A stretch of 64,000 bases of DNA from Amphiura filiformis. Its lineage: Eukaryota; Echinodermata; Ophiuroidea; Amphilepidida; Amphiuridae. Positions within the stretch are counted from its first letter, which is position 1; each line of letters begins with the position of its first letter. The stretch covers positions 31,936,880-32,000,879 of the forward strand of contig NC_092646.1 in assembly GCF_039555335.1 (NCBI RefSeq), read 5' to 3'. The notes beneath the pieces were generated by a model. The model was not told where the DNA came from. It was given only the letters and a program-made list of their open reading frames with translations, and did not search any database. Positions 16,379 to 62,233 of the stretch are shown in pieces. Made by a program: the position numbers and the translations under genes.

Positions 16379-16406
16379 ATGGTAGGTATTATGATACCTA
16401 CCATGG
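16379..16406. repeat. 28-bp palindrome
   Basis: CATGGTAGGTAT followed after four bases by its inverse ATACCTACCATG. Hairpin-forming; no assigned role. Confidence 0.75.
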
Positions 16407-16566
16407 TTGAATACAAGAAGACATTAAAAGATGTTCATCATTCCGTGCACTCACTAAATTTAGAACTCTTAGAAATTTGGCAACTCCGTATCAATTAAGC
16501 AACCTATGATTGTAGCAAAATATATATTTTCCCGGTACATACTATTTATTGCACGTGTAATACTTT

Positions 16567-16887
16567 TTGACGTCACGAAAAGTATTGTACATACAATATT
16601 GTACGTACAATACGGAGTCTGAAGCGCGCTTAAGACATTTGCGTTTTGAGAGATGGATTTGGAAAAGGGATTCAAAACAGGTCATGATTACAGCTGCATT
16701 CCTGGAAGCAGAAGGAATTGAGACACTTGAGTGGCCCTCCAGAAGCCCTGATCTTAACCCCATGGAGAACCTTTGGGATCAACACAAGAGACGAGTAAAC
16801 AAGAAGATAAAGGCAGATACAACTCTGTTGGGATTGCGTCGCAGCGATATCAACGAGTGGAACGGGGTTGAGCAAGGTAACATTTGA
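16567..16887 (+). pseudogene. Tc1-type transposase, C-terminal fragment
   Basis: The open frame encodes FLEAEGIETLEWPSRSPDLN followed by PMENLWDQHKRRV. Known: SPDLNPxENLWD is the signature around the third catalytic acidic residue (here E67 of NPME) of Tc1/mariner DDE transposases, normally about 340 residues long. Only about 40 residues are convincing. The residues upstream of about position 40 do not resemble the family, and the first two catalytic Asp motifs are missing. It sits near the right inverted repeat of the 13868-17306 element in the expected orientation for a relic of its own transposase. Confidence 0.75.
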
Positions 16888-17308
16888 CGCATCATTGGGA
16901 GCATGAGACTCCGCGTGGCTGCTGTAAGGGAAGCCAACGGTGGACACACAAAGTATTGAAAGACTGGTAAAGAAAGAGATTAATCTCAAGTTAAGTTGGA
17001 AGCGGCAGTATGATGCCTGAAATATGCTCAGTAATTAAACAAACAATGTTATCTGCATGTTTGTTGTTTTTTGTGTTCTTTCATGCTGAAAACTTGAATA
17101 GGCCTTTTTGCAATTTTCATTTTTCGACCTCGTGTTACTTAAACATTCATATCTTTTCTCAGGAGTGTCGTAGAGTAGTGATTGAGGTGTCAAAATGCGC
17201 AGGACAATCACCCGCATGCGATTATTTAACAAACGTACAAAATTATTCGCTAGATTTTAATAGTGGGTAAATTTCCTAACCATAAAGAAACTTTTTTTGC
17301 GTAGTGTA

Positions 17309-21734: not shown

Positions 21735-24350
21735 CCCGGTCCCCGCAATCTGTGCATCCGCGGGTATTCATGCTTGTCGGTGAACTTTAAAAACACCCCC
21801 TTTTGCATCTCATTTCGCGAAGTTTTTAGGGGAAAAACACCCCTTTTTTAGCGATTTCGCGAATTATTTGCCCTTCGACAATACCCCTATTTTCGCTAAA
21901 ACGCGAACGATATTTCTAATATACCCTTTTCTGGCAGAAACGCGTATAGTAGGGTTTTCATGTGAAAAAGTTTGCAACCCCCTACAAACACAAAGTTAGT
22001 GTCAAATGAAAGATAATGACAACAGAATCATCACACTTTTTAAATTTTTCGAATCGGATAAAATTTGACCAAGTTATGACCAAAACTTGCACGAAAAAAT
22101 GATAACGAAATGAGGACAATAGCTCCATAGGCCATGATGTACTGTATTTGGCCAAATATGGCCTAATTATAGCATTGGAATTACACATTTTCATTCACTA
22201 TTTTCTTATTTTACATCACATCAACTTGATTTTTTCAACATATTAAGTTTGTATTGAGGCAAATCTGAAATTGCGAAAAAATTTCAAAAATATTATTAAC
22301 GACTGGTCTTTTGTTGCCATGGAAACCAATCGAGTTTTAACCAAAATACGTAAAAATAACCCCAAAACATGATCCTCATTTTTAAGAACATCAGAATGTG
22401 TTAAATGATATATTTGTGTACTCAATCAATTTAATTTAAACTGAACATAGCCAAAATACATGATTTTAAACATACCTTTTCAATGGTTTCCAAGGTAACA
22501 GTTGATTGTCCCTAGCAACAAGGGAAAATAGCTTAATTTTTTTACCGCCATTTTGTTTGGTGTTTTTTTAAATAAATTTGCAGGGTGGTATTACAATGTT
22601 TAATATCATATATTAAATTAAGTAGCACATAATGTATGATAAATGACATTATGACATAAAAAAACACATATTTTACCTAGCAACAGGACAATTTACATAG
22701 CAACATAATATTCGTTCATAGCAACATAACACAGGATATTATTATACCAGAGCAACAGGTACTTTCAAACACAAATAATAGTTATCAAATAAATGGTAAT
22801 CTACACAACCACAGATATTGGATGTGACACAACAAAGCTGCTGAACATAGGTATATTATTGTAAAAAAATTAACATGACTTTCAATAATAATAATGTATA
22901 CAATTGTGGGACTCCATGTACCCCCCCCCCCAAATCCTCAAAAAAAAACATTATTTAAAAAAAAGTATAAAAAAGGGACTGGTAAAATAATAAAACAGTT
23001 TGGCTTTGTATCCAATTATTTTTCTTAAGCTTCGCCCATTCACCCGTTGTACCCCTGACTACTCCAGGGACCTTTATTTCCTTGAGGGCCTTTAATCCCT
23101 TGTCCTACCATAATGTACCCCCACCCCCCCCCATCAAAACTGTTGCATCTATTAGTTTTGCTTTACAAGCCCCTCACACACATTATAAACACCCATAAAT
23201 GACAATGGAACAGTCTAAAGTAGCATTGACTAACTGTATGAATGGGCTATACCATTATGCATTATAGGTACATATTTATATTGATGCTACAAGTACAGCA
23301 CTATAAATTGCACTCAAAACTTATCTTTTCCTCTGAAATAGTTAAAAAGTTATTCCTCTGAAATAGTTAAAAAGTTACACATTTACTTCAGATAAATGAT
23401 AATAATCCTTTATTTGCAGTTATAACTCAATTTTGGGGTTTTACTGGAAAGCTGCATAAACCCTCTGGTCAACTCAATTCAGCCCCGTCAACTCTGCAGG
23501 CACCACTAAGCCAGCACACGCCTACTTGCTCAGTGATGTGGCCTGTTGTGAAAAACCATGACATGTGCAGATACTTTTCCATTTCCAGGGGCTATTTTAT
23601 CACCTACAACCTCAAGATTTTAACCTGAGATACCTTAAACATTATACTTTAATATTCTAAATGTCTTTTAAGTCAAATGTGTTGTTTACATGCCCAAAAT
23701 ATTGTACCTACTTTTGGGGATTCTCAGCTTGGCTTGTGGATGTCCTACAAATTTCAGACAAACTCCAGGGTATAGCTTGCAGCCTCCACAATAAAATAAG
23801 AAGTCTCATTAACTGTCAATCAGCTCCAGTTGCCCTGGAAACGACCTACAGAGTGACTAGTTTCATTCTTTTGCAAAAAATTTGAGGTCAAGAATGACTT
23901 ATAAGGCCTTTTTCTAGTGAGCATTTGCCAAGTGGGCTGGACTGACTAGGTTTCATTCATAAGGCTGAGGCTTGTTTATACAGCAATATTTCTATAAAGT
24001 GATTACAGAAATCAATGGTAGACATTTTAAGGTTTACTAAAAGGTATAATATGCCTGAAAAAAACATTTTTTAAGGGAAAACACTTGTTTGAATCTGTGA
24101 GTTTTTGGAGGAAAGTGAGTGTTCTGTGTGTGTGGGTGTCTTCAGTTCGAGGTCGTCACACTGAAACCCCTACGTATAGGCTGCTCGATGAAAATACCCT
24201 TTTTTTCAATTTCGCGAACATGTGGTTTGAAAAAACACCCTTTTTTGTGTGTTTCGCGAATCGCGTTTTATTCATCTGAAAACACCCCTTATTTCGCGAA
24301 ATTTTCGACGAGCATGAATACCCACGGATGCACGGAGTGCGGGGACCGGG
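21735..24350. mobile_element. 2.6-kb inverted-repeat element of the CCCGG group, 8-bp duplication
   Basis: Exact 8-bp flanks ACATCACC lie at 21727-21734 and 24351-24358. Terminal inverted repeats of roughly 55 bp start CCCGGTCCCCGCAATC and end GAGTGCGGGGACCGGG. Internally next to the ends are AACACCCC and TTTCGCGAA words on both sides. The middle (about 22000-24050) is non-coding and includes poly-C (22919-22931). No transposase seen. The CCCGG ends and 8-bp duplication place it with the smaller elements at 1287, 5874, 35490 and 63405. Confidence 0.85.
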
Positions 24351-32427: not shown

Positions 32428-33411
32428 TTGACTCTGTCCATCATACAATACAACAAGACACTGCTGAACACATTTGATATGAATGTAAGACTTTTAAAAC
32501 CATTTACGTGTGGATTTTGTGGCATCTACCTCTATTCTTTGAATAGGTTTAAAGGCCACATTGACAGACATATGATCAAGTATGTTAAAGCAGATAGAAT
32601 CAAGACTAGAGAGGTACTTTTTTGGTGTAAATATCGTCAGAAATATTTTGCACCTTCTGGCAATCTAAAAGGACACACTAACACGAAAGATAACCCGTAT
32701 AAGTGTGAGTATTGTCAGAAATGTTTTACACGAAGTAGTCATCTCAGAAGACACATCAAAACTCACACAAAAGAGAAACCTTACCAGTGCGAGTATTGTC
32801 AGAAATGTTTTACACGAAGTAGTCATCTCAGAAGACACATCAGAACTCACACAAAAGAGAAACCTTACCAGTGCGAGTATTGTCAGAAATGTTTTGCTTT
32901 AAGTTGGCATCTCAAATTGCATATCCGGACTCACACTAAAGAGAAACCTTACCAGTGCGAGTATTGTCTGAAATGTTTTGCTTTAAGTTGGCATCTCAAA
33001 TTGCATATCCGGACTCACACTAAAGAGAAACCCTATCAGTGTGAATATTGTCAAAAATGCTTTACGCAATCTAGTACTCTTAAAAATCATATCAAAACTC
33101 ACACAAAAGAGAACACCTATCAGTGTGAATATTGTCAAAAATGCTTTGTAGTATCTAGTGCTCTTAAACATCACATCAGAATTCACACTAAAGAAAAACC
33201 CTATCAGTGTGAATATTGTCAAAACTATTTTGCACACCAAAGTAATCTTAAGAGACACATCAGAACTCACACAAAAGAGAAAGAATTTCAGTGTGAGTAT
33301 TGTCAAAAACGTTTCACACGATCTGCTACTCTTAAATACCACATCAGCACTCACACCAAAGAGAAACGATATCAGTGTGAGTATTGTGAGAAAACGCTAT
33401 GCACAAAGTAG
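32428..33411 (+). CDS. C2H2 zinc-finger protein, copy 2, frameshifted near its end
   Basis: 327 residues. N-terminal module MNVRLLKPFTCGFCGIYLYS (Met at about 32476 is the start shared with other copies), a degenerate second finger lacking one Cys, then eight intact fingers and the start of a ninth. Fingers at 32704-32787 and 32788-32871 are nearly identical in DNA, and so are those at 32872-32955 and 32956-33039, showing recent duplication of single 84-bp finger units. At about 33391 one extra base, absent from the paralogue at 44890-44910, shifts the frame and gives a stop at 33409-33411. The remaining four fingers continue in another frame to 33718. It is either a truncated protein or a young pseudogene. 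Confidence 0.7.
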   Translation: MTLSIIQYNKTLLNTFDMNVRLLKPFTCGFCGIYLYSLNRFKGHIDRHMIKYVKADRIKTREVLFWCKYRQKYFAPSGNLKGHTNTKDNPYKCEYCQKCFTRSSHLRRHIKTHTKEKPYQCEYCQKCFTRSSHLRRHIRTHTKEKPYQCEYCQKCFALSWHLKLHIRTHTKEKPYQCEYCLKCFALSWHLKLHIRTHTKEKPYQCEYCQKCFTQSSTLKNHIKTHTKENTYQCEYCQKCFVVSSALKHHIRIHTKEKPYQCEYCQNYFAHQSNLKRHIRTHTKEKEFQCEYCQKRFTRSATLKYHISTHTKEKRYQCEYCEKTLCTK

Positions 33412-34441
33412 CCATCTCAAAAGACACACCAGAACTCACACTAAAGAGAAACCCTATCAGTGCGAATATTGTCAAAAATGCTTTACACTATCTCATTCTC
33501 TTAAATACCACATCACAACTCACACCAAAGAGAAACCCTATCAGTGTGAATATTGTCAAAAACGTTTTGCAGAGCCTGTGAAACTCCGACACATCAGAAC
33601 TCACATCAAAGAGAAACCCTATCAGTGTGAGTATTGTCAAAAATGCTTTACACGAAATAGTGGTCTCACTAGACACATCGTAACTCACAAAAAAGAGAAA
33701 TCGTATCAGTGTGAATAATTGTAACAAGAATTTGTGTTTAAAAAGACAAAGTTCACGGATCAGGTGTATAGTTCTCTACTTTGGTCTAACTTTCAATATT
33801 ATTATACTAACCCACAGATACTAACCTATTCTGCACTGATTTAACAATAAATAAGTGATTTGAGGCATAAATGATACTTGCATCTTGACTCTGGAAAATA
33901 ATTTTCAAAAAACCTCATTTTGCATAAATTAGGTTTTTAAGCCACCTACAGGAACAAACTTACACCAAAATGTCCACTGTATCAGCCCATCAGATGCTAT
34001 TTCCCATTCGACACCCCATTCCTTTTTAAAAGAAGTTTTATTTGGAAGCAAATCGCCTAATGTGTTTCAGGAACACTGCATGTTTGTTGAATAGTTTTAG
34101 ATGCTACATGCCAATATCACTAAAGTAAACACATTGCACTACATGGTCTTGCTATAGTTTTTGTCAGCATATCCCAGCTTTTTATATGCACACCAATTAT
34201 TATTTTGTAACAGAAAATATAACATTGGATATGTTTATACACCCATTGCTTGGTTATTACAAGAGTTAATAAACAACGAATTTAACTAACAGTGTTTAAT
34301 CAGGGAAGTGGTTCAATTAAAGCCATATTATAACATTTGCTGAGGAAGACGCCTTCACTGAATTGTTAAAATTCCTTTTTTTACACGATTAAATTGTACT
34401 TTATTAAACCAATATACCCTGCAAAAATCAAGACTCTAGGT
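33372..34441 (+). repeat. Duplicated 3' end of the zinc-finger gene (pair of 44890-45969)
   Basis: The last four fingers, stop and about 720 bp of 3' flank are nearly identical to 44890-45969. Homology ends at GACTCTAGGT (34432-34441). A candidate polyadenylation signal AATAAA lies at 33846-33851 and is kept in the other copy. One small difference: the other copy has an extra CCGCCATACCGGGGTTTTTA near 45750. Confidence 0.85.
33392..33718 (+). pseudogene. Out-of-frame C-terminal fingers of copy 2
   Basis: In the shifted frame the series YAQSSHLKRH, CFTLSHSLKYH, RFAEPVKLRH (one residue short between Cys and His) and CFTRNSGLTRH runs to KSYQCE and a stop at 33716-33718. The same end, including the shortened finger, occurs at 44900-45230, so it is inherited from a common ancestor. 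Confidence 0.85.
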
Positions 34442-39811: not shown

Positions 39812-41758
39812 TTGATCACATTTAAAATGAATGCAAGACTTTTAAAACCATTGACTTGTAGATTTTGTGGAATATACCTCTATTCTCTGAATAGGTTGAA
39901 AGGTCACTATGACAAACATATGATCAAATATGTTAATGCTGCCAGAAACAAAAAGACTAGAGAGACATTTTGCTGTAAATATCCTCAGAAACCTGTCGGT
40001 CTAAATGGACAAACGTACACGTACCCATGCAAGTATTGTCCAAAATGGTTTACGCAATCTAGTACTCTTAAATGTCACATCAGATTTCACACAGAAGAAA
40101 AACCATATCAGTGTGAATATTGTCCGAAATGCTTTACACTATCTAGTCATCTTAAAGTCCACATCAGAACTCACACTAAAGAGAAACCCTACCAGTGCGA
40201 GTATTGTCAAAAATGTTTTACGGAATCGGGTAGTCTTAAAGCTCATATTAGAACTCACACAAAAGAGAAACCCTATCAGTGTGAATATTGTCTAGACCGT
40301 TTTGCACTACTTGGTGCTCTTAAATGCCACATCAGAACTCACATGAGAACTCACACCAAAGAGAAACCTTATCATTGCAAATATTGTCAGAAATATTTTT
40401 CACAATCTAGTCGCCTCAAAAGCCATATCAAAACTCACAGTAAAGAGAAACCCTATCAGTGTGAGTATTGTCAGAAGTGCTTTGAACAAAATAGCGATCT
40501 CAAAATACACAGAAAAACTCACATCGAAGAGAAGACTTACCAGTGTGAGTATTGTCACAAATGCTTTGCATATCCTAGTTTTCTTAGGACGCACATTTTA
40601 AATCACACTAAACCAAATCAGTGCGAGTATTGTCAGAAATGCTTTGCACGAGCTACTTGTCTAAGGAGACACATTCTAACTCACAAAAAGGAGAAACAAT
40701 ATCAATGCGAGTATTGTGAGAAATTCTTTATACATCTCGGTAATCTCAAAAGACACATTCTAACTTGCACCAAAACTCGCACTAAACAGAAGCCTCATCA
40801 GTGCGAGTATTGTGGGAAATGTTTTCCACATTCTTGTAATCTCAAAAGACACATCGTAACTCACATCAAAACTGAAGATAGAGTGAAACCTTATCAGTGT
40901 GAGTATTGTCAGAAGTGTTTTGCAGAATCTGGATCACTCAAAATCCACATCAGAACCCACACTAAAGAGAAACCCTATCAGTGTGAGCATTGTCAGAGAT
41001 GTTTTGTGCAAAGTAGTCATCTCAAGGACCACATCAGAACTCATACTAAAGAAAAACCCTATCAGTGTGAATATTGTCAAAACCGGTTTTCACAGTCTAA
41101 TGTTCTTAAATACCACATCAGATTTCACTGTAAAAAAACACTACCTCACACTAAAGTGAAACCCTATCAGTGTGAGTATTGTGGGATTTGTTTTGTAGAA
41201 TCTGCAAAACTTAAACGACACATCCTAATTCACACCAAAGAGAAACGATTTCGATGTGAGTATTGCCAAACATGCTTTGCACGAAGTGGTGATCTCAGAA
41301 GACACATCAGAACTCACACTAAAGAAAAACCGTATCTGTGTGAATATTGTCAAAACTGTTTTGCACAAGCTTATCAGCTTAAACGTCACATCAGAACTCA
41401 CACAGAGAAATCCTATCAGTGTCAGTATTGTCAAAAATGTTTTGCGGAAAACATTGATCTCGAAAGTCACATCAGAACTCACACTATACAGCAATCGGAG
41501 AATATAAAAGGAAAACCGCATCAGTGTGAGGTTTGTAAGAAACGCTTTGCAGAGTCTGGGAAACTCAAACGACATATGATTACTCACACCAAAGAGAAAC
41601 CCTGTCGATGCGAGTATTGTCAGAAATGCTTTACACAAAATAGTGATGTCAAAAGACACATCATGAGAAAACACAAAAGTGAAACCTTACCAGTGCGAGT
41701 ATTGTCAGAAATGCTTTTCACTGCTTTGGATTCTCAAACAACACATCCGAACTCATAA
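39812..41758 (+). CDS. C2H2 zinc-finger protein, copy 3 (about 20 fingers), longest of the cluster
   Basis: 648 residues, the most complete copy. The shared module MNARLLKPLTCRFCGIYLYS starts at the Met near 39830 and is followed by a run of about 19 C2H2 fingers with [17 protein letters not shown] units. One finger has Cys in place of the last His (HILTC). Linker irregularities such as a doubled RTHMRTH suggest past unequal exchange. Helix residues differ between fingers (for example TQSSTLKCH, TESGSLKAH, EQNSDLKIH), as expected for a sequence-specific DNA binder. The last 27 residues are out of frame: HIMRKH holds one extra base and a further finger ([16 protein letters not shown]) continues in the next frame to a stop at about 41758-41761. 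Function unknown; probably a nuclear DNA-binding regulator. Confidence 0.85.
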   Translation: MITFKMNARLLKPLTCRFCGIYLYSLNRLKGHYDKHMIKYVNAARNKKTRETFCCKYPQKPVGLNGQTYTYPCKYCPKWFTQSSTLKCHIRFHTEEKPYQCEYCPKCFTLSSHLKVHIRTHTKEKPYQCEYCQKCFTESGSLKAHIRTHTKEKPYQCEYCLDRFALLGALKCHIRTHMRTHTKEKPYHCKYCQKYFSQSSRLKSHIKTHSKEKPYQCEYCQKCFEQNSDLKIHRKTHIEEKTYQCEYCHKCFAYPSFLRTHILNHTKPNQCEYCQKCFARATCLRRHILTHKKEKQYQCEYCEKFFIHLGNLKRHILTCTKTRTKQKPHQCEYCGKCFPHSCNLKRHIVTHIKTEDRVKPYQCEYCQKCFAESGSLKIHIRTHTKEKPYQCEHCQRCFVQSSHLKDHIRTHTKEKPYQCEYCQNRFSQSNVLKYHIRFHCKKTLPHTKVKPYQCEYCGICFVESAKLKRHILIHTKEKRFRCEYCQTCFARSGDLRRHIRTHTKEKPYLCEYCQNCFAQAYQLKRHIRTHTEKSYQCQYCQKCFAENIDLESHIRTHTIQQSENIKGKPHQCEVCKKRFAESGKLKRHMITHTKEKPCRCEYCQKCFTQNSDVKRHIMRKHKSETLPVRVLSEMLFTALDSQTTHPNS

Positions 41759-41761
41759 CTA

Positions 41762-41937
41762 ACTTTTATTATATCTAATTAGCATCTAATTCAGATGCTG
41801 TGATTACTCGTCAATCTGCAGTATAATTCTACAATCACGACCTGGATATAGTTAATTCAACTCCGATTTGTCCGATTTTTTTACCGAAGATGACACCTTT
41901 AATGAACTGACTGACCATCATAAACAAGACACAATGC
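41762..41937 (+). other. Upstream exon part of zinc-finger copy 4
   Basis: TTCAGATGCTGTGATTA (acceptor AG at 41793-41794) and CCTGGATATAGTTA match the corresponding parts of copies 2 and 3. The intron is reduced to a few tens of bases between the end of copy 3 and this exon. Confidence 0.6.
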
Positions 41938-44900
41938 TGAACACATTTAAAATGAATGTAAGACTTTTAAAACCATTAACTTGTAGATTTTGTGGCATCT
42001 ACTTCTATTCTTTGAATAGGTTGAAAGGTCACGTTGACAGCAGGGGTAGCGCTAGAACTAAACACTCCAGTGTCCGCAGGGACCCCCGAACTTGCAGAAA
42101 ATTAAAAAGTAAGGGGTCCGAAGTAGAGTTTGGTGAGTCCGAGTTGCACAAATGCAGCATCTGCAATAGGGTCAGTCCATGTCGAAACAGATTGAGTGTA
42201 CACCCACCCTCTTGGATTATGCTCTCCTTTGGCTCAGGGGTACCTTTCATGGATCCCTAGGTGAGGTCACAAGAAAAAATTCAAATTCCATTTCGTTTGC
42301 GAATGGCGGGCAATCAAAGTTTGGCGACCTCGACCAAAATTGTGAATTTAAGGGTCCAAATGACAAAGTGCTCTCTTTGAGGGGCACTTTCTTCTTAATT
42401 GAATCAGTTGTGATCCTCTTTTTGAATGTGGTCACTCACTGGCTGTGTCTGAAATACCTAATGGCAAAAAAGATAGATTTCGGAATTTCGTTGGGATTTC
42501 AGAGGGGTCAAAATCAGCACTTCGTACTGTTCAATCAAATTATCTTGATTTTGAAGGACCCATGATAATGTCACAGTGCACTTATAGGTCCTAATTATGT
42601 TCAGAATGGATTAACCATATGCCAATGTCTATGAGCAATTAAAAAAAAGAGAAATTTCTAGACCCCTACAGAATTTTAGGCCACCCCTAAAGTGGTTCAG
42701 CCACAAATGGCACTTAAAGTCGGCAAATTTTGACCCCTTATAACTTTAGGTGTACACCAGATATGAATTTCTAGCCTTTTGCATCTGAAAGAATGTAGTT
42801 TAATGTTACTAGGAACATATGATTTGTTTTGTATTTTTTGTGTTTTAGTATTAAGTTGACGCTTTCAAAAATAGTCATTTTTGCCTAACATACCATGCAT
42901 ACAGGATACGGTACAAAATGCCAATTTTAGTATGATATTTTTTTATATTTTTGATCACTTTATAGCCATTTGTATTATTTATCCTGATATTTCAAGTTGC
43001 TCTTGAGTCAAGTAATAAGAAAAAACTACTTTCTAATCCTCTGTATGGATTTTTAAGGGGGTCAAAAATGCACTTCCTGGCAACGATGCACATGCAAAGT
43101 ACAGGTTATGGGGGTCAGATTTTCAGAATGCTCCCAATTATGTCAAGTAATATATCAAATTACTCAGTATGGTCATGAGGATTCCAAAATGTATAGTTTG
43201 TTATGTGTCAGACCTTTCAGGAGGGCGCTATGACGAAAAATGTTCATAGGTCAACGACCTTTTGAAAGTATCAAAACACAAAAAATACAAAACAAATCTT
43301 ATGTTCCTAGTAACATTAGACTACATTCTTTCAGATGCAAAAGACTAGAAATTCATATCTGGTGTACACCTAAAGTTATTAGGTGTCAAAATTTGCCGAT
43401 TTTAAGCGCCATTTGTGGCTGAACCACTTTAGGGGGCCTAAAATTCTGTAGGGGGTCTAGAAATTTCTCTTTTTTGAATTGCTCATAGACATTGGCACAT
43501 GGTTAATCCATTCTGAACATAATTAGGACCTATAAGTGCACTGTGGCATTATCATGGGTCCTTCAAAATCAAAGATAATTTGATTGAACAGTACGAAGTG
43601 CTGATTTTGACCCCCTCTGAAATCCCAACGAAATTCCGAAATCAATCTTTTTTGGCATTAGGCATTTCAGACACAGTCAGTGAGTGACCACATTCAAAAA
43701 GAGGGTCACAACTGATTTAATTAAGAAGAAAATGCCTCTCAAAGAGAGCGCTTTGTCATTTGGACACCTTAAATTCCCAATTTTTGTCAAGGTCGCCAAA
43801 CTTAGATGGCCCGCCATTCGGAAACGAAATTGAATTTGAATTTTTTCTTGTGACCTCACCTAGGGGTCCATGAAAGGTACCCCTGAGCCAAAGGAGAGCA
43901 TAATCCAAGAGGGTGGGTGTACACTCAGTCTGTTTTGACATGGACTGACCCAATAGCACTAGATTGAAAAAATCGGGGGTCTGCAGGGACCCCTGAACTT
44001 GCAGAAAATTGAAAAACAGGGGGTCCGAACTCTATTTTGGTGGGTCCGGGACCCCAAAAAGCGACATAGCGCTACCCCTGGTTGACAGGCATACGATCAA
44101 ATATGTTAGAGCTACTAAAATAAAAAGAATGAGAGACACTTTTTCGGTGTAAATATCTTCAGAAATCTGTCAATACGTACACCAAAACTCACACTAAAGA
44201 GAAGCCTTATCAGTGTGAGTATTGTCAGAAAAGTTTCAAGCAAAGTAGTTATCTCAAACAACACATCAGAACTCACACTAAAGAGAAACCCTACCAGTGT
44301 GAGTATTGCCAGAAATGTTTTACATACTCTAGTACTCTTAAATGTCACATCAGAAAGCACACAAAAGAGAAACCCTATCAGTGTAAATATTGTCAGAAAT
44401 GCTTTTCACAACCTGGCCATCATCAATGACACATCAGAACTCACACGAAAGATAAACCCTATCAGTGTGAATATTGTCAAAACTGTTTTACGCAATCGGA
44501 TACTCTTAAATGTCACTTAAGAACTCACACAAAAGAGAAACCCTATCAGAGTGAATATTGTCGAAACTGTTTTGCACGCAAAAGTAGTCTCAACAGACAT
44601 ATCAAAATTCACACGAAAGAGAAACCACACCAGTGCCAGTATTGTCAGAAATGCTTTACAGAATCGGGTGCTCTCAAAATCCACATCGGCAGAACTCATA
44701 CTAAAGAGAAATCCTATCAGTGTGAGAATTGTCAGAAATGCTTTGCAGAATTTAGTCATCTCAAATATCACATCAGAACCCACACAAAAGAGAAGCCTTA
44801 TCAGTGTGAATATTGTCAAAAATGTTTTGCACAATCTGGTACTCTTAAATATCACATCAGCACTCACACCAAAGAGAAACGATATCAGTGTGAGTATTGT

Positions 44901-45230
44901 GAGAAAAGCTATGCACAAAGTAGCCATCTCAAAAGACACACCAGAACTCACACTAAAGAGAAACCCTATCAGTGCGAATATTGTCAAAAATGCTTTACAC
45001 TATCTCATTCTCTTAAATACCACATCACAACTCACACCAAAGAGAAACCCTATCAGTGTGAATATTGTCAAAAACGTTTTGCAGAGCCTGTGAAACTCCG
45101 ACATATTAGAACTCACATCAAAGAGAAACCCTATCAGTGTGAGTATTGTCAAAAATGCTTTACACGAAATAGTGGTCTCACTAGACACATCGTAACTCAC
45201 AAAAAAGAGAAATCGTATCAGTGTGAATAA
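41938..45230 (+). pseudogene. C2H2 zinc-finger copy 4, split by a 2.0-kb foldback transposon
   Basis: The module MLNTFKMNVRLLKPLTCRFC begins at 41938 and is cut after GGTCACGTTGACAG (42040). It resumes at 44081 after the transposon, reading DRH-like then IKYVRAT. Further lesions are a frameshift leading to a stop near 44149, a stop at about 44426-44428 within a finger (CAA TGA where a His/Leu codon is expected), and a Cys changed to Ser (YQSEYC near 44550). From 44429 to the stop at 45228-45230 the finger frame is open again, about ten fingers. The end is the duplicate of 33372-33718. A non-functional gene with several independent lesions. Confidence 0.88.
42041..44080. mobile_element. 2,040-bp giant foldback hAT-like element inside zinc-finger copy 4
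   Basis: Exact 8-bp duplication GTTGACAG at 42033-42040 and 44081-44088. Ends CAGGGGTAGCGCT and AGCGCTACCCCTG. The arms are near-perfect inverse copies over about 800 bp each (roughly 42041-42870 and 43235-44080). For example CCACCCTCTTGGATTATGCT at about 42201 is matched in inverse near 43910. They surround a ~370-bp unpaired middle. No transposase is visible; open frames in it are mirror images of one another. CAGGG ends with an 8-bp duplication fit hAT. Confidence 0.93.
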
Positions 45231-45969
45231 TTGTAACAAGAATTTGTCTTTAAAAAGACAAAGTTCACAGATCAGGTGTATAGTTCTCTACTTTGGTCTA
45301 ACTTTCAATATTATTATACTAACCCACAGATACTAACCTACTCTGCACTGATTTAACAATAAATAAGTGATTTGAGGCATAAATGATACTTGGATACTCT
45401 GGAAAATAATTTTCAAAAAACCTCATTTTGCATAAATTAGGTTTTTAAGCCACCTACAGGAAACAAACTTACATCAAAATGTCCACTGTATCAGCCCATC
45501 AGATGCTATTTCCCATTCGACACCCCATTCCTTTTTAAAAGACGTTTTATTTGGAAGCAAATCGCCTAATGTGTTTCAGGAACACTGCATGTTTGTTGAA
45601 TAGTTTTAGATGCTAGATGCCAATATCACTAAAGTAAACACATTGCACTACATGGTCTTGCTATAGTTTTTGTCAGCATATCCCAGCTTTTTATATGCAC
45701 ACCAATTATTATTTTGTAACAGAAAATATAACATTGGATATGTTTATACCGCCATACCGGGGTTTTTACACCCATTGCTTGGTTATTACAAGAGTTAATA
45801 AACAACCAATTTAACTAACAGTGTTTAATCAGGAAGTGGTTCAATTAAAGCCATATTATAACATTTGCTGAGGAAGACGCCTTCACTGAATTGTTAAAAT
45901 TCCTTTTTTACACGATTAAATTGTACTTTATTAAACCAATATACCCTGCAAAAATCAAGACTCTAGGTG
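44890..45969 (+). repeat. Duplicated 3' end of the zinc-finger gene (pair of 33372-34441)
   Basis: Last fingers, stop and 3' flank almost identical to the other copy. Homology stops at GACTCTAGGT (45960-45969). AATAAA is at 45358-45363. Confidence 0.85.
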
Positions 45970-51694: not shown

Positions 51695-52050
51695 CCCTAT
51701 TCCAGAAAAATACAGAACTAATTTTTTGGGATTAAAAAAATATTATCCTAGCTGTTTTGGCAAATGAAATATAGCTATATCCTAATCCTTTAGTTATAGT
51801 CCTAACTAGCAATAAAAGTTAAATTTTGATATTTGGTAAATTTTTGGAAATAAGGGCCAAAAACATGCGATTTTAGGGTGTTTTTCGTATGCTGTGACAA
51901 TCAAGCTCAACTAAGACTAGTTTCTGACTACTAGTAGTTGTTCCAAGTCTTTGATTTTTGTGACACGATTGTCAGAAAACATGCCGAAAATGCATGTTTT
52001 TGGCAAAATTTTGAATGCTTTGACTTGTTCCAAGTCTTTGATTTTTGAGA
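51695..52050. mobile_element. CCTATTCCAG foldback element, left half (right half 56269-56707)
   Basis: Starts CCCTATTCCAGAAAAATACA and follows the intact copy at 50096 up to CCAAGTCTTTGATTTTTGAGA. The Mutator-like element then interrupts it, and the sequence resumes at 56278 with CTCGATTGTCAGAAAACATG. Confidence 0.85.
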
Positions 52051-53570
52051 GGGTGTTTCCATAACCTGACCACCTTTTCTGACTACCTTTTCTGACTACC
52101 TTTTCTGACCAGCTTTTACAGTGAGCCCTGTGATATTTGATTGGCCTTATCCCAATGCCATAGTCCAATAACATTAACTAAACAATCATAGTGCAAAATT
52201 TGACCTCAAGTTGCAGAGTATGAGGTTTTTGTACCCCTATTTTCAAAGGTCATTCAATGAATGTACAAATGTATTGGAGTTAAAGAACTGTGCACTAATA
52301 GATGAGAATGTTTTGGATCCTAGTGTTTTACACCATAATCATAGACAGTCATGCTGGGTGATAATTAGCAAGCTTTTCTCTGGGACTTGTTCATAGATAA
52401 ACAACATTTTTAAGGGTACATGGTTGTTATTTCTTTCTCACTTTAGATTATTTATTTGTACCTTCCCTTACCTAAAAAACTAGCATTCCCTAAGCACTCA
52501 CTAGGCATTCCATTGAATGGTAAAGAACCGTTAATGAATGCCTAAATGGTGAATGCCTCCAATACTATAACATTGAGTTAATAGGCGGTTATTAGCACTC
52601 AACCGCCTGTTTGCTAGCCCTCAACCGCTTATAGCGGTTCATAAGTGGTTCATAAGCCCTCCTCAGAGGCGAAATATGTAAATGAGCTAAGCACTCGAAC
52701 CACTAAGGAGGCATTCGAACCACTAAGGAGGCATTCAAACCGCCTAGCATTTAAACCACCTAGGAAGCATTCGAACCGCTTGGGAAGCATTCCAACCGCC
52801 TAGGAAGCATTACAACCGCTAGGAAGCATTCCAACCGCTAGGAAGCATACCAACTGCCTCAGAAGCATTCCAACCGCCTACCGGTTAGCACTCGAACCAC
52901 TTATTTAGCCCTCAACCGCTATAAGCGGTTCGTAAGTGGTTCATAAGCCCTCCTCAGAGGCGAAATATGTAAATGAGCTAGGCCCTCGAACCACTTAGTG
53001 GCATTCCAACCGCCTATGAAGCACTCCAACCGCCAAAGAAATTTCCAATCGCCTCAGAAGCATTCCAACCGCCTATAGGCATTCCAACCGCCTATAGGTA
53101 TTCCAACCACTTACAGGTGAGACACTCGAACCACTATATAATTATATAGCTATATGCTGGCTAAGCAATTCTACGAGAGTGACAAATAGGAATATAATGC
53201 ACTGCATAAAATTGCAAATGGTAATAGCCCAGAACCATTTTTTATCCATTGTGACAGATGCAGAGGCATTTAAAGTTCAGTACAGCGTATGTCTTTGTCG
53301 AGTCTATGATATTTTTAGGTCAAAAGTGAAAAAAGACAATTTTCGCTAATTTTCCCATTTTCCTGATCAAATGAGGCTCATGATAAATATTTTTCCATAT
53401 GATTTCCCATATTTTCCCGAGATAGCACTTGAACCCCTATAGGGGTTGCTATAGGAATTCTAGGAGAGTAAGGATTAAAAATATGCACAAATTTAACTCA
53501 AATATAGCCATGTGCATCAGCAAGAGCATAAATTGCATGATCAAATTGATAACTGATAAATTGAGTACAT

Positions 53571-53847
53571 CCCAGTGGGCACAGCTAGGTTAGGATTTTG
53601 ATGTTGTATCAACGTTGAAACAACATCGAAGTTTCAACCTAACCTGATTTCAACCTGATTTTAACCTTACGGTTAGTTGAAATCACATTGAAATTTCAAC
53701 CTGGTTTCAACCAACTTTCAATGCAAAATTTAAGGAGGTTGAAATCAGGTTGAAGTCCATTTGCAAATACAACCTGATTTCAACCCGATTTCAACTAGTC
53801 AACGTCGAAATTTCAACCTGATTTCAATGTTAGGTGTGCCCACTGGG
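53571..53847. mobile_element. ISL2EU-like MITE, 277 bp, AT duplication
   Basis: Ends CCCAGTGGGCAC and GTGCCCACTGGG, flanked by AT on both sides (53569-53570, 53848-53849). The interior is a head-to-head series of TTGAAATCAGGTTGAA/TTCAACCTGATTTCAA units. Known: CCCAGTGGGCA ends with a 2-bp AT duplication resemble ISL2EU-type MITEs of invertebrates. Confidence 0.8.
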
Positions 53848-54454
53848 ATCAGTGTGTTTTATAAATACACAAAATAATTATAGCTACGTCATAATTATAT
53901 AATTTGTCGTTGTTGTTTGGTTTCATTGTTTGAGGTTTCATTGCTCTTTGCTTGAGCTCTTCTTGCGCCATATGAGTGCATTTTTTAGTGGATTAGTGCA
54001 TGGTATAACTGTACACTATTATTATTAATGTTAACAATAATGCCCCAATATGGTAACTAGCTCCTCTTTCCTAACACTAGACCATTCCATATTTCAAGAA
54101 ACTGCCTGCATAAAACCCTATATTCAAAGTTACATCTAGTCATATTTAAGCTTACCTATACTTACACCATCCATATTGTGGCATAATTATTGTACACAAA
54201 GATAACTACATGGATCCCATACATGTATGATGTTGTCCACATAATATGCATTTTCATGTAACATCCCAAATGTAAAGAGTGAAAAATAAGGCCTATAATA
54301 AAGCTGGAAACATGAAAGGATTAAGAAACCATCATCTCTGCATTCACACCAGTTCAAAATGGCAGTTAGAAATATATTCCCATCATGCACCTGCTTGACC
54401 CTTGGGTCAACCACTAAGGAATGCTAGTCAAGGCTATTAGCAGAATGCCTAATT

Positions 54455-54640
54455 GAATGGAATGCCTATTACTTAGAAATTTTTTACCCTAAGGCCTAAT
54501 ACTTAGAAATTTTTCAGTGGAATGCCTATTACTTAAGAATTTTTTAACCGAATGCCTAATACTTAGAAATTTTTCAGTGGAATGCCTATTACTTAAGAAT
54601 TTTTTAACCGAATGCCTATGACTTATCCGAATGCCACTGA
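54455..54640. repeat. 60-bp tandem repeat
   Basis: CAGTGGAATGCCTATTACTT, AAGAATTTTTTAACCGAATG and CCTAATACTTAGAAATTTTT recur exactly 60 bp apart (54515 and 54575), with a diverged third unit before. Confidence 0.85.
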
Positions 54641-54912
54641 GTGCCTATAGCAAACCGCCTAATTAAAGGAATGCCTAAGTTACGAATGCTTAGGAATGCC
54701 TAAGTTAATAGTATTGAGCTTTAACGAGGGCTTAATGAGTAAATAGGCATTCGGTAGCATTCTTGTGAGGCATTGGGAATGCCTGTGAACCAGCTCTATA
54801 GGCATTCATTAGCTGCTGAGTGCTAGTGACCACCTAGTACCGCTATCCTTGGCACTCGAGGGCTTGGCGAATACCTACAGAATGCCAAATAGGCATTCAT
54901 GTTTGGTAAGGG

Positions 54913-55214
54913 TTTTGCTTGTCGAGTATCCTTTGATTTTGTTTTGTTTAATACAGTTTTGTTTATATAGGCCTATTTAATGTCTTGGATGCACCATCGG
55001 ATCGAGTGCCACTGATGTAAAAGCAATTTCCAAATAAAAACTTGAAACTTAAAAAAAAACTACAACACTTTCATGGTAAATGAAATTATTTAAAACAAAT
55101 AAAATAAAATTTTGCACACACATCCAATTTTCCTGACTTCATTCGAACGAGTGCTCCCTAGTGTTACCCTCAGCACTTCCCTGTTCAGACTTTGTCTGTC
55201 TGATGGACAATTAA
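54913..55214. other. Short non-coding stretch inside the MULE
   Basis: One TAGGCCTA site (54968-54975); no gene seen. Confidence 0.4.
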
Positions 55215-55886
55215 GAGTATACGATGTATTGTTGGTCGAAGCAGCAGAAAACAAAGTAGTTCACAGCACCTTGCAAATGGTAGTGAGCTTTAGCAAAAAT
55301 TGCATTGCTCAATATTAAGCCCAATCGGCATTGGAAGGTTGCAATGCATTGTGGGACACATTTTGCAGTTTTGGGACACTTTGTCCTTTGACCTATCGGG
55401 AAAATTCAGAAAAATTGGGGTTTTGAGCGTACAAAATATAATTTAAAACGTGTTACTAGAATAAAAACAACAACCCAAAAATTTGATTATTGTATAAATT
55501 AATTATTTTATTATTTATAATGATAACATTATTACAATAATAAATTAATGATTACAGCAATTTTCCAGATATGTCAGAGGTCAAAGTGTCCCTAAAAACC
55601 TGAAAGTTATGGCGATTGTGCTTATTCATAGCGAGCGTGTAGAATAATTCAAATATCACAGATATACTTTTGTAGGTCCTGTGGTTCTTGAATTATGTTG
55701 TAGAGAGGGCTTAAACAACAACACTTTTGTAAAACGCACATAACTCATTAACAATAAATTAAGCAAGTTTTCCAAAGTATATGATTTGTATAATGAACTT
55801 CTGCAAAACACCAAAGTGTTATTTTTCAATAATATATTGATTCAGATAATGAAAATCTGCTTCGACCAACAATACCTCGTATACCC
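55215..55886. mobile_element. TTAA-flanked (piggyBac-like) foldback MITE, 672 bp with nested insert
   Basis: TTAA at 55211-55214 and 55887-55890. ~30-bp inverted ends: GAGTATACGATGTATTGTTG and TTGGTCGAAGCAG on the left, mirrored on the right. A TA-type MITE (55318-55622) sits inside, so without it the element is about 365 bp. TTAA targets are diagnostic of piggyBac-type transposition. Non-coding. Confidence 0.82.
55318..55622. mobile_element. TA-inserted MITE (mariner-like), 305 bp, second copy
   Basis: Ends AGCCCAATCGGCATTGGA and, in inverse, AGCACAATCGCC. Flanked by TA (55316-55317, 55623-55624). Both arms include TTTTGGGACACTTTG or its inverse. Same family as 29868-30190. Confidence 0.85.
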
Positions 55887-55890
55887 TTAA

Positions 55891-56204
55891 ACCCATATTC
55901 ACATTCATGCTGCACCCTTAATATCTGCAGGGCATGTTTGACAAACATCATGAATATGACCTTGTGAAGTGGTGGTAACTGTGTTTAATGATTATTGACC
56001 CAGCACCTGCAATGATAACTGTCTCCTGAGAAGTTAACTGCCCTGTGAAAAACCATGGAAGTATGGAAAAACAAAAGAAATTTCACTTGAAATTTCAATT
56101 TTATGTCACTTAACATCCAGAATGGTACAACATTATTGTGCAAAGTGTAAAGATAACAACAATGAAGCAAACATCAAAATAATGTCAAATAAGATTGTCA
56201 AAAA
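55891..56204. other. Right interior of the MULE, no gene seen
   Basis: AT-rich, non-coding. Confidence 0.4.
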
Positions 56205-56268
56205 AGATGGTCAGAAAAGGTGGTCAGAAAAGGTAGTCAGAAAAGGTGGTCAGGTTATGGAAACACCC

Positions 56269-56707
56269 TTTTTGAGACTCGATTGTCAGAAAACATGCTG
56301 AAAATGCATGTTTTTGGCTAATTTTTCAAGAAATTGGTAAAATAGTAGGCCTAAACCTTTTCTATTATCTCCAGGTTAGTCTACTGTAGTAGACCAGTTT
56401 AATTTATCATTCCCTAAATTAATCTCTCTGACCATGGAAAAGTCATCATTCCTGTTCTGATTCAACAGCTCAGATATCCATCTGGGCAGGACAGTCACTG
56501 GAGATGTGATGTGTTTCGTCATAGATTTTAAATGGTTTCATGCATGGAAACGTATGAATTGTTTATCAAAAAAAAAAAAAAAAGGAATGCAGCGCAGTCT
56601 ATCTCCAGGTAGGACTAAATGAATGATTAGGATTAAGCTATTTTTCATTTGGCAGAACTTGATAATATTTTTTAATCCAAAAAATTAGTTCTGTATTTTT
56701 CTGGAAT
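56269..56707. mobile_element. CCTATTCCAG foldback element, right half, with an extra insert
   Basis: Continues the left half from 52050. Bases 56375-56597 are an extra segment ending in 15 A (56569-56583) plus GGAATGCAGCGCAG. It is bracketed by TCTATTATCTCCAGG and TCTATCTCCAGG and absent from the partner at 59510-59525. It may be a short retroposed sequence; its origin is not recognised. Confidence 0.7.
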
Positions 56708-57236: not shown

Positions 57237-57799
57237 CCCGGAGGGGGTTCTCCCTGGTTGAAGGTATACGGGGATGTGCCACGGTTTTGGGGTACCTTTT
57301 CAGCAATTTTGGTATATCGATGGGTGGGTTTCACAACCCAATGGGATTAACATTCATAACATCGAGACTTGGGAATAAAATTAATGCAGTGGGACAATAT
57401 GAATGTTTCCTGTAAGAAAATCAAATATCAGTCCTAAGTCTTAACTATTAGCTTGTTGGCTGCAGTTTTAAAATTACCATTTTGTGTGTGTGGCAATGGG
57501 GACTTTGCCTTTAAAATTAGGTTATATTGATCAAATTTCCCAATCATAGTGCATTGTAGGAATGCCTTTAAGCCTCAACTGGGTGGGTTTTCAGTGGAGA
57601 TCAATGCGCCTGGGCGCATTTGGGCAAAAGTGCCCATAAAAGCGCCCAATTAGGGCAAATTTGGGTGCTTTTTGGGTGTGAAAAATTGGTCTACTGATGG
57701 GTGGCAAAAACAGCAAAAAGTAGGTATAGAGAAAGTCGGCATCCAAAAGTCTGCGTGGCACATCCCCGTAATTTTTTTTCTCGAAGAACCCCCCCCGGG
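57237..57799. mobile_element. CCCGG-group element in unit A, itself interrupted
   Basis: Ends CCCGGAGGGGGTTCT and AGAACCCCCCCCGGG. The subterminal arms share GGGGATGTGCCACG. Flanks CTGCCAG and TTGCCAG. The related module at 36330 has one TTGCCAG and no element. Length is 563 bp, including the 248-bp insertion at 57332-57579. Confidence 0.85.
57332..57579 (+). mobile_element. 248-bp insertion with 11-bp target duplication (relative of 806-1150)
   Basis: TGGGTGGGTTT occurs at 57321-57331 and 57580-57590, but once in unit B (60267-60277). The insert starts CACAACCCAATGGG and ends AAGCCTCAAC. It lacks ~100 bp present in the 806-1150 copy. It must have inserted after the unit A/B duplication, or been lost precisely from B. 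Confidence 0.93.
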
Positions 57800-58300
57800 T
57801 TGCCAGACGTCTGCTATTTAGAGCATGATAGGGTGCTTATGTCATTGTTATGTTGTGTAGTTTTTCGGGAGTGTTCATAAATACTTTAGTACGTGTGTGT
57901 GTGGGGGGGGGGGGGGCTGTGAAAAATGGAGGGGTAAAAAGTTTTAGGTCTTCAAAGGGGGGGATAAAAAGTTTGACTACTTTTGGAAGGGGGGTCAAAA
58001 AGTTTTAACCAATTATTGAACAAAAATTTCATGCGCATTTAACCATGGCATAATTGAGAATAATGAAAGTCCGTTTTAATATCATTACATCATGGACCGC
58101 AGCATTCCAATTTATATAGGCCTACCTTCTAATACCCTTGGAAATCAGGGCGAAAGTGATACTGTTGGATGTTTGTTCGAGCATATTCTAACGCAACAAG
58201 GGCATCTGTGAGCAAATTCGTTGCTAGTGTTTCTCGAGCAAATGGATGTTTAGCTGAAAACGACAGCCTAAAGATCTGGATACCGGGTCTGGATACCTTA

Positions 58301-58574
58301 GGGACCGTTCACAAACACTTGTAAGGGGGGGCCTGATGCAAAAAATGTCATTGCAAAAAAATTTTCGGGGCCCTTTACAGACCTCAAAAATTTCAGGGCC
58401 CCCCCTTTTTGACATGAAAATTATGGGTCAACCCCATAGCATAGAAAAGCATATAAACTAAATTTTTCCAGGAAAATTTGTGGTCTTTTTTTCAGGGCCC
58501 CTTTAGGAGGGTCAAAATTTTTCAGGGCCCCCTTTTTTTTTTATTTTCCCTAACAAGCGTTTGTGAACGGTCCC
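58301..58574. mobile_element. PIF/Harbinger-like foldback MITE, TTA duplication (copy 3)
   Basis: GGGACCGTTCACAAACACTT and its inverse, with TTA at 58298-58300 and 58575-58577. Equivalent to 60940-61206 in unit B, so it predates the duplication. Confidence 0.88.
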
Positions 58575-58739
58575 TTAAGTAATTTGCAGTGCTCAGTTAG
58601 TGCTGATTTGTTGTGATCATATTGTTGTGTTCCAAAATGATAATATGCAATCATGAAAGTTCCCAATACATTTGGATGCAAAAAATATTGGGAATTTGTA
58701 AAGAAACAACATCATAAATGGGTAAAATTTTCAAATTGC

Positions 58740-58975
58740 TTTCGCCAAAATTGTTCACCCCTTTAGGCCTGCCCAAAAAACTTTGCCCCCTTTGCACATG
58801 CCAAATATTTTGGTTCCCAATGTGCAAACTTTAAATGGTCTAAAGGTGCCCCGTAAATGTGTGCCAAAATTGCTTGCCCCCCTCTCCGCCTGCCAAATAC
58901 TGCTTGCCCCCCTCTCCACCTGCCAAAAAAATCTTGGCCCATATGCCACACAAAATGGGCTGGTAACATAGACTT
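58740..58975. repeat. Interior fragment of the GGGGTGGTGCAATAATTATG family
   Basis: Units of TGCCAAA...TTGCCCCCCTC type as in 36720-37100, without terminal repeats. A second copy in unit B is at 61375-61607. Opposing open frames here come from the repeat. Confidence 0.6.
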
Positions 58976-59256
58976 AAAGCCATAATGTGTGATTTACTCC
59001 ACAGCAACGCCCTCAATTATTTTTGAATTTCTACTTTTTGCACCATTGTAATGACCATTGGTGTACATAAATGATATTTGAAAGACTAAGCCTGAAGTGC
59101 TTTAATTACAGTAAATTTAACATTTGTAATAAAACCGACGAGTGCTGAATAAATATGTGGCCTGCGTGTGTATAGTGAACCATTGAATAAGTGACGTACG
59201 GTATAAACTGAACATCCCGTCAGCTGCACATAGCTCGGCAATAATCATGAAAAATA
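58976..59256. other. Non-coding part of unit A
   Basis: No gene seen. Ends with CAGCTGCACATAGCTCGGCA, the sequence also at 38128 and 61856. Confidence 0.45.
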
Positions 59257-59487
59257 CCATATTTCGTCAAATAAACGGGGGCGTTACATTTTCCCAAGGG
59301 GGGGGCGTTTATTCAAGGTCAATTTTAGAACGATAATTCCCGTTAAAATCATTAGGTAAACTAAAAACACACGCTAAAATGACGAACTATGAACTAGAAA
59401 CACTGACTTCTGGCTCACTTCCGGGTTTCTGATCCAGATTTTCGCCAATTATTGACGCTATTATCGACCATGTGCGCAACTTGGTAA
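59257..59487. mobile_element. Truncated TA MITE at the duplication breakpoint
   Basis: Left 231 bp of the element complete at 61892-62233 (starts CCATATTTCGTCAAATAAAC). Cut at TTGGTAA. Confidence 0.85.
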
Positions 59488-60183: not shown

Positions 60184-60456
60184 CCCGGAGGGGGTTCTCC
60201 CTGGTTGAAGGTATACGGGATGTGCCACGGTTTTGGGGTACCTTTTCAGCAATTTTGGTATATCGATGGGTGGGTTTTCAGTGGAGATCAATGCGCCTGA
60301 GTGCCCATAAAAGCGCCCAATTAGGGCAAATTTGGGTGCTTTTTGGGTGTGAAAAATTGGTATAGGCCTACTGATAGGTATAGAGAAAGTCAACATCCGA
60401 AAGTCTGCGTGGCACATCCCCGTAATTTTTTTTTCGAAGAACCCCCCCCCCCCGGG
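60184..60456. mobile_element. CCCGG-group element in unit B, uninterrupted, 273 bp
   Basis: Same ends as 57237-57799. It contains the single TGGGTGGGTTT (60267-60277) that is duplicated in unit A. Confidence 0.88.
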
Positions 60457-60939
60457 TTGCCAGACGTCTGCTATTTAGAGCATGATAGGGTGCTTATGTC
60501 ATTGTTATGTGTAGTTTTTCGGGAGTGTTCATAAATACTTTAGTACGTGTGTGTGTGGGGGGGGCTGTGAAAAATGGAGGGGGTAACAAAAGTTTTAGGT
60601 CTTCAAAGGGGGGGGGGAACAAAAAGTTTGACTACTTTTGGAAGGGGGGGTCAAAAAAGTTTTAACCAATTATTGAACAAAAATTTCATGCGTATTTAAC
60701 CATGGCATAATTGAGAATAATGCAAGTCCGTTTTAATATCATTACATCATGGACCGCAGCATTCCAATTTATATAGGCCTACCTTCTAATACCCTTGGAA
60801 ATCAGGGCAAAAGTGATACTGTTGGATGTTTGTTCGAGCATATTCTAACGCAACAAGGGCATCCGTGAGCAAATTCGTTGCTAGTGTTTCTCGAGCAAAT
60901 GGATGTTTAAAACGACAGCCTAAAGATCTGGATACCTTA

Positions 60940-61206
60940 GGGACCGTTTACAAACACTTGTAAGGGGGGGGCCTGATGCAAAAAAATTTCATTGCAAAAA
61001 AATTTTCGGGGCCCTTTACAGACCTCAAAAATTTCATGGCCCCCCCTTTTTGACATGAAAATTATGGGTCAACCCCATAGCATAGAAAAGCATATATTTC
61101 CAGGAAAATTTGTGGTCTTTTTTTCAGGGCCCCTTTAGGAGGGTCAAAATTTTTCAGGGCCCCCTTTTTGCATCAGGCCCCCTAACAAGCGTTTGTGAAC
61201 GGTCCC
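60940..61206. mobile_element. PIF/Harbinger-like foldback MITE, TTA duplication (copy 4)
   Basis: TTA at 60937-60939 and 61207-61209. Copy of 58301-58574. Confidence 0.88.
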
Positions 61207-61891
61207 TTAAGTAATTTGCAGTGCTCAGTTAGTGCTGATTTGTTGTGATCATATTGTTGTGTTCCAAAATGATAATATGCAATCATGAAAGTTCCCAATA
61301 CATTTGGACGCAAAAAATATTGGGAATTTGTAAAGAAACAACATCATAAATGGGTAAAATTTTGAAATTGCTCGCCAAAAATTGTTCACCCCCTTTAGGC
61401 CTGCCCAAAAAAACTTTGCCCCCCTTTGCACATGCCAAATATTTTTGGTTCCCAATGTGCAAACTTTAAATGGTCTAAAGGTGCCCCGTAAATGTGTGCC
61501 AAAATTGCTTGCCCCCCTCTCCGCCTGCCAAATACTGCTTGCCCCCCTCTCCACCTGCCAAAAAAATATTGGCCCATATGCCACACAAAATGGGCTGGTA
61601 ACATAGACTTAAAGCCATAATGTGTGATTTACTCCACAGCAACGCCCTCAATTATTTTTGAATTTCTACTTTTTGCACCATTGTAATGACCATTGGTGTA
61701 CATAAATGATATTTGAAAGACTAAGCCTGAAGTGCTTTAATTACAGTAAATTTAACATTTGTAATAAAACCGACGAGTGCTGAATAAATATGTGGCCTGC
61801 ATGTGTATAGTGAACCATTGAATAAGTGACGTACCGTATAAACTGTACATCCCGTCAGCTGCACATAGCTCGGCAATAATCATGAAAAATA

Positions 61892-62233
61892 CCATATTTC
61901 GTCAAATAAACGGGGGCGTTACATTTTCCCAAGGGGGGGGCGTTTATTCAAGGTCAATTTTAGAACGATAATTCCCGTTAAAATCATTAGGTAAACTAAA
62001 AACACACGCTAAAATGACGAACTATGAACTAGAAACACTGACTTCTGGCTCACTTCCGGGTTTCTGATCCAGATTTTCGCCAATTATTGACGCTATTATC
62101 GACCATGTGCGCAACTTGGTAAGCTTACTACACAAGATAGCATGGAAATATCAGCATTTTTGAAACATCTTGGTTGAAAAAAGTGGTGGGGGGCGTTTAT
62201 TTGAGGGGGGGCGACTATTTTGACGAAATACGG
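61892..62233. mobile_element. TA-inserted MITE, complete, 342 bp
   Basis: Ends CCATATTTCGTCAAATA and TATTTTGACGAAATACGG, with G/C-rich subterminal GGGGGCGTT. TA on both sides (61890-61891, 62234-62235). The paralogous segment has one TA and no element (38172-38173). Mariner-like by its target. Confidence 0.9.

Follow-up and report, generated by a model that had tools for sequence, protein, structure and literature searches.

A putative hAT-like foldback element with same-facing end modules in a zinc-finger gene copy of Amphiura filiformis

An interrupted zinc-finger copy

The window – the whole stretch of Amphiura filiformis DNA that we analysed, 64,000 nucleotides (64 kb) in length – carries four zinc-finger copies, the fourth of which is interrupted by a transposon-like insertion of 2040 bp (42041-44080). 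The insertion is non-coding and its halves are near mirror images of one another; the positions of its parts, and of the gene segments on either side, are collected in Table 1.

Table 1. Positions in the window of the element's component parts and of the zinc-finger copy that it interrupts
Feature	Position	Strand	Basis
Zinc-finger copy 4, 5' part (N-terminal module to first His of finger 1)	41856..42040	+	alignment to copies 1-3; ORF
Target-site duplication (left), 8 bp, GTTGACAG	42033..42040		read directly
Terminal inverted repeat (left), 14 bp, CAGGGGTAGCGCTA	42041..42054	+	direct comparison
Left subterminal module S, overlaps inner part of terminal inverted repeat	42047..42160	+	sequence comparison with right module
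Left foldback arm, 685 bp	42162..42846	+	self-alignment
Middle, 426 bp, would-be hairpin loop	42847..43272		no other match in window
Right foldback arm, 686 bp, inverted	43273..43958	-	self-alignment
Right subterminal module S	43954..44067	+	same orientation as left module
Terminal inverted repeat (right), 14 bp, TAGCGCTACCCCTG	44067..44080	-	direct comparison
Target-site duplication (right), 8 bp, GTTGACAG	44081..44088		read directly
Zinc-finger copy 4, 3' part	44089..45230	+	ORFs; TAA 44150-44152, TGA 44427-44429

Evidence of an insertion comes from comparison of the flanks with the sister copies. The flanking sequence of copy 4 makes up a C2H2 finger, C-x2-C-x12-H-V-D-R-H, and, when the flanks are joined with one copy of GTTGACAG, they align without a gap across the junction to copy 1 (180 of 201 columns identical), copy 2 (222 of 273) and copy 3 (171 of 201). 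The same alignment confirms that the element lies in copy 4's N-terminal module, as a preliminary description of this DNA had stated. That description placed the insertion between codons contiguous in copies 1-3; the coding sequence is indeed uninterrupted in those copies, but the insertion point falls inside a codon, that of the Arg between the two zinc-binding His residues of finger 1. At this place the Pfam family zf-C2H2_jaz is matched by copy 1 with 25.5 bits (cut-off 22.6), while the interrupted copy 4 stays under the cut-off.

The element had also been credited with splitting the gene. It does lie within copy 4, but that copy is broken further downstream as well: the frame running on from the insertion stops at the TAA given in Table 1, and the finger array continues in another frame from 44133, only to reach the in-frame TGA. 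Given this frameshift and in-frame stop, the element need not have been what killed copy 4. Near 33390 a 1-bp difference gives copy 2 a frameshift of its own. This copy and copy 4 also resemble each other closely along part of their length, with 95-100% identity in ten of eleven hundred-column blocks (33341-34419 and 44854-45946; the remaining block is at 80%), preceded by eight blocks at 66-82% identity and then a sharp edge. A boundary this abrupt suggests that the two have recently undergone gene conversion or unequal crossover.

Tips, arms and same-facing end modules

The element is flanked by two identical 8-bp duplications, exactly as first described, and ends in a 14-bp terminal inverted repeat (TIR) that is perfect throughout; the inner eight bases of its left copy, TAGCGCTA, form a palindrome. 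Both features match the hAT superfamily, for which 8-bp target-site duplications (TSDs) and TIRs of 5-27 bp are reported (PMC3517528), or TIRs of 10-25 bp in a second source (PMC3942097). When the window was scanned for 8-bp TSDs combined with 12-bp TIRs, eight candidates emerged – the element, three nested words within its own arms and four others – as against 0 to 3 (mean 1.1) in each of ten block-shuffled control sequences.

Between these ends lie two long inverted arms that enclose a non-coding middle, the arrangement expected of a foldback. Aligned to one another in inverted orientation the arms are identical at 651 of 689 columns (94.5%, or 95.5% if gaps are ignored), the longest identical stretches measuring 61, 47 and 41 columns; they differ by 31 mismatches (17 transitions, 14 transversions) and 7 gap columns, a Jukes-Cantor divergence of ~4.7%. 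The preliminary description spoke of a near-perfect foldback with two ~800-bp arms around a short middle, and named an identity below 85% as telling against it. The observed identity is well above that value, and the inverted arms and the 426-bp middle are present, but the arms measure ~690 bp and contain indels, and the outermost 95-114 bp of the two ends repeat each other in direct orientation, outside the foldback. Inverted symmetry thus does not extend to the tips: the arms start 121 bp in, and outside them only the 14-bp TIR is mirrored. The length of the element, moreover, is well beyond that of the many-copy miniature inverted-repeat elements (MITEs), which are generally under 600 bp (PMC4298943).

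Two further observations concern the arms themselves. Both (at 42235-42247 and 43873-43885) contain, ~195 bp from each tip, the sequence CAGGGGTACC, which nearly repeats the tip of the element and is possibly the trace of an older end. A coding remnant within the arms was considered and rejected, the best Pfam matches (E 0.11 and 0.16) being far under the cut-off.

An odd feature of the element, absent from the preliminary description, is the ~105 bp at each end, between the 14-bp tip and the arm, that show no mirror symmetry. These subterminal modules (S) match one another in direct orientation, at 75 of 95 columns (79%) when 42047 is aligned with 43954, and at 75% over 114 bp. With the TIRs removed, the direct match still extends over 59 of 70 columns (score 85), as against an inverted match of 9 bases (score 18), and the best direct score among 2000 shuffles was 26. 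Palindromy of the modules themselves, which would render orientation meaningless, was rejected for the left module, since 600 of 1000 shuffles attain its self-inverted score. In the right module a degree of internal inversion is present, its own score being equalled in 13 of 1000 shuffles, yet the direct score of 85 between the modules far exceeds the inverted 18. A direct match with almost no inverted counterpart means that one of the two modules is flipped with respect to the arms.

Two routes to this layout are possible: a flip may have occurred between palindromic words, or each end may have acquired a short element that faces the same way. A near copy of the palindrome TAGCGCTA, TAGCACTA, is found in the right module, at its inner edge. 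The words GGGTCC/GGACCC occur two and four times in the element's two ends, and it would be a guess to call them transposase sites.

A foldback carries the risk of acquiring two identical ends, and the modules deserve pursuit because the transposase of Hermes, a hAT element, requires asymmetric ends: as reported for Hermes, most activity is lost when the ends are symmetrised, and the subterminal repeats are antisense in the left end (the first excepted) and sense in the right. By analogy, same-facing modules might keep a foldback mobile by restoring asymmetry, the transposase being able to tell a 'left' end from a 'right'. We hold this reading to be unlikely, since in Hermes movement was reportedly not rescued when the first 50 bp of one end were made asymmetric again, kinship between our element and Hermes is assumed, and from a single copy design cannot be told from accident. 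Were the layout common to copies genome-wide, it would imply that selection acts jointly on the formation of foldbacks and the asymmetry of their ends; and were the family mobile, a mirror-image transposon with same-facing modules would constitute a natural test of the hAT end-asymmetry rule. Our literature search, judged from titles and the openings of abstracts, found no account of same-facing modules within a foldback.

Superfamily, rival explanations and the RNA hairpin

The element is probably a non-autonomous, non-coding, cut-and-paste foldback transposon of hAT-like type. The assignment is based on TSD length and tip sequence, because no hAT transposase was found in the open reading frames (ORFs) scanned. 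Nine of the 34 ORFs of at least 35 aa that overlap the element, together with an ORF reading from the gene into it, contain neither a hAT transposase nor any other Pfam domain above cut-off; elsewhere in the window, 15 of the 91 ORFs of at least 75 aa outside the zinc-finger arrays yielded reverse transcriptase and DDE_3 fragments instead of hAT transposase. A zf-BED match in ORF 2-610 (21.3 bits against 20.6) was rejected as a sign of hAT transposase, being overlapped by stronger C2H2 matches.

The tips support the earlier claim of hAT-like ends. They begin with CAGxG, the general consensus of hAT tips. Beyond that, the tip CAGGGGTAG is identical to the first nine bases of CAG(G/A)GGTAGGC, the TIR of the Drosophila hAT MITE Mar (PMC3517528), and its CAGGGGT is common to the Buster2 TIR, CAGGGGTGGCCAACCT (PMC4298943). 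Within the superfamily, clues to a particular family conflict, a Buster-like tip being combined with a non-Buster TSD. The duplication GTTGACAG departs from the Buster pattern nnnTAnnn (PMC3517528), having GA at positions 4-5, and fits instead the nTnnnnAn preferred by Hermes (PMC10368747) and typical of Ac/Hermes-type targets; each comparison concerns a single site, and the fit would arise by chance with a probability of ~10% at this base composition.

If the ends are a reliable guide, the tips CAGGGGTAGCGCTA, and probably also the subterminal module, would have served as recognition sites for a hAT-type transposase supplied by another element. Once the four zinc-finger copies had diverged, the element would have been excised from its donor site and joined over an 8-bp staggered cut in the Arg codon of the fourth. 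Its arms probably arose by inverted duplication of the interior of an older element, to be followed by ~4.7% divergence. In situ it would be a passenger that blocks continuous reading of copy 4 – a copy itself broken elsewhere, earlier or later – and a read-through transcript would fold into a long double-stranded hairpin.

Sequencing or assembly can create long inverted repeats as chimeric artefacts, and an inverted duplication of this kind could in principle account for the mirror-image structure. This we regard as extremely improbable, given that the arms differ by 5.5%, with indels, and that the element has a TSD at its ends and an empty site in the paralogues. Membership of another superfamily with 8-bp TSDs – P, Merlin, a Zisupton-like group or one as yet undescribed – is a more substantial rival, if still an unlikely one. 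The tips of P, Merlin and Zisupton elements are not known to be like the one found here, which resembles those of hAT elements. The superfamily has, however, been deduced from the ends alone, and Galileo, of the P superfamily, is described as having evolved long foldback arms though TIRs in its family are otherwise short (PMC4168063). The main rival is Mutator, because most foldbacks have been assigned there (PMC4079207) and because Mutator-like elements (MULEs) make 8-10-bp duplications; a MULE foldback moved by a Mutator transposase would account for the TSD length. MULEs typically have TIRs of more than 100 bp (PMC5225508), whereas the strictly terminal repeat is here just 14 bp, followed by ~105 bp that are not mirrored, the long arms beginning only 121 bp inward. 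The tip, moreover, matches published hAT tips, and subterminal tandem repeats of the Muta1 kind are absent, there being no tandem array within 41484-44179. We thus give a Mutator origin a low probability and retain a hAT-like element as the best explanation.

A last alternative concerns function, and turns on the hairpin. That a transcript would form very long double-stranded RNA, as the preliminary description claimed, was borne out by computation for the inner 921 nt (42600-43520): the predicted fold has -483 kcal/mol, where 20 shuffles average -201 (z -37.8) and none of them is as good. For a single arm, the fold resembles that of its shuffles (z -1.2), 5 of 20 of which do as well. Counting G-U, pairing would extend to 662 of 689 arm columns when the + strand (the sense of the zinc-finger gene) is transcribed; 11 of the 31 mismatches then become G-U, as against 6 when the opposite strand is. 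The model indicates a capacity for double-stranded RNA and nothing further. The locus could nevertheless be one that the host uses, the foldback being retained for a transcript that yields small RNAs and thereby silences dispersed relatives or the transcripts of zinc-finger genes: the extreme stability and extensive pairing would suit such a role, and plant MITE transcripts are reported to form hairpins that yield siRNAs (PMC12595863). We find this improbable, since the mismatches between the arms – their transitions, transversions and gaps – resemble neutral decay; and a blastn comparison detected no zinc-finger sequence in the arms, so that any small RNAs would target relatives of the element and not zinc-finger genes. 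If the hAT-like family is mobile, a 690-bp hairpin inside a transcribed zinc-finger cluster would nonetheless lend itself readily to processing by small-RNA or RNA-editing pathways.

Considered as an insertion the element is ordinary, a further non-autonomous DNA transposon at a repeat-rich locus, and foldbacks and hairpin-forming hAT elements are already known; the odd feature is the same-facing end modules. Similar in its ends is Mar, of the Buster family in Drosophila willistoni, which is likewise non-coding, with a short TIR, the tip CAGGGGTAG and an 8-bp TSD, but which is 610 bp long and AT-rich, has the TSD nnnTAnnn in place of GTTGACAG, and is described without mention of foldback arms in the source consulted (PMC3517528). 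The stable hairpin build recalls hATpin, a MITE-like hAT family with highly stable secondary structures, a likeness drawn from the title of that work; hATpin, unlike our element, is a plant family. Very long inverted arms, transposase-less copies and TSDs are shared with the Drosophila foldback Galileo, which differs in its P-superfamily transposase, in arms that reach the tips and in the tandem repeats within the arms of some copies (PMC4168063, PMC3688188); TIRs of 4246/4680 and 1575/1608 bp are given for its copies (PMC4168063). Tetris, from Drosophila virilis, is similarly non-autonomous, with long arms, a non-coding middle domain, 8-10-bp TSDs and no known autonomous partner, but it has 220-bp tandem repeats in its arms and is assigned by its authors to Mutator (PMC4079207). 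The sea-urchin foldback of Lieberman et al. (1983), as cited in PMC4079207, is a further animal foldback, likened here by that citation; our literature search for TU or a sea-urchin foldback returned nothing. The earlier statement that arms of this length are unusual for a hAT MITE holds in a relative sense, hATpin hairpins, and foldback arms of 1.6 to 4.7 kb from another superfamily, being already in print.

Relatives and neighbouring repeats

No second copy of the element is present in the 64-kb window. A blastn search of the window found no further copy of the arms or the subterminal modules, and a profile search with the arms gave a sole extra match, non-significant (E 0.75) and located in the element's own middle; Rfam families are likewise absent from the window. 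Near-tips in the window were rejected as marks of other copies: the eight matches with at most three mismatches compare with a chance mean of 4.8 and are equalled in 13 of 100 shuffles, and two of them are the element's own ends and two lie inside its arms.

Further afield, two arm patterns gave 0 and 0 matches in IMG/VR, one arm pattern gave 0 in GTDB contigs, and the whole element had no blastn match among plasmids. Such silence tells little of a eukaryote, the collections being viral, prokaryotic and plasmid. The 14-base tip had 60 matches in IMG/VR; comparison of the element with all 60 produced short matches only (best E 0.27), and these were dismissed as chance. To judge by the ranking of the matches, none of the papers retrieved for the tip contains the 13-mer CAGGGGTAGCGCT; those listed were, by their titles, mostly primer lists.

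Several other repeats occupy the window. At 7594-13025 lies a 5.4-kb stretch with a 72-bp TIR at 94% and an 8-bp duplication, ACGCGACC, probably another DNA transposon; nested within it, at 10468-12558, are a 34-bp TIR and the 7-bp repeat GTGCAAC. A second probable DNA transposon, of 2.6 kb (21735-24350), has a 45-bp TIR starting CCCGGTCCCCGC and the 8-bp duplication ACATCACC. Inverted repeats of 215 bp (94%) at 13866-17308 enclose a fragment matching DDE_3 (16561-16884), and together probably represent a Tc1/mariner-like relic. An element-like stretch of 4.2 kb (52050-56269), flanked by TTTTGAG, is bounded by inverted ends of 68 bp (97%) that consist of 13-bp tandem repeats. Two neighbouring copies of a 1.9-kb stretch, both in the same orientation (57580-59487 and 60267-62122), share 93.6% identity. 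Lastly, 4222-4291 forms the centre of a long, near-perfect inverted repeat whose arms continue beyond the 70-bp core and which is flanked by the palindrome AAGTACTT.
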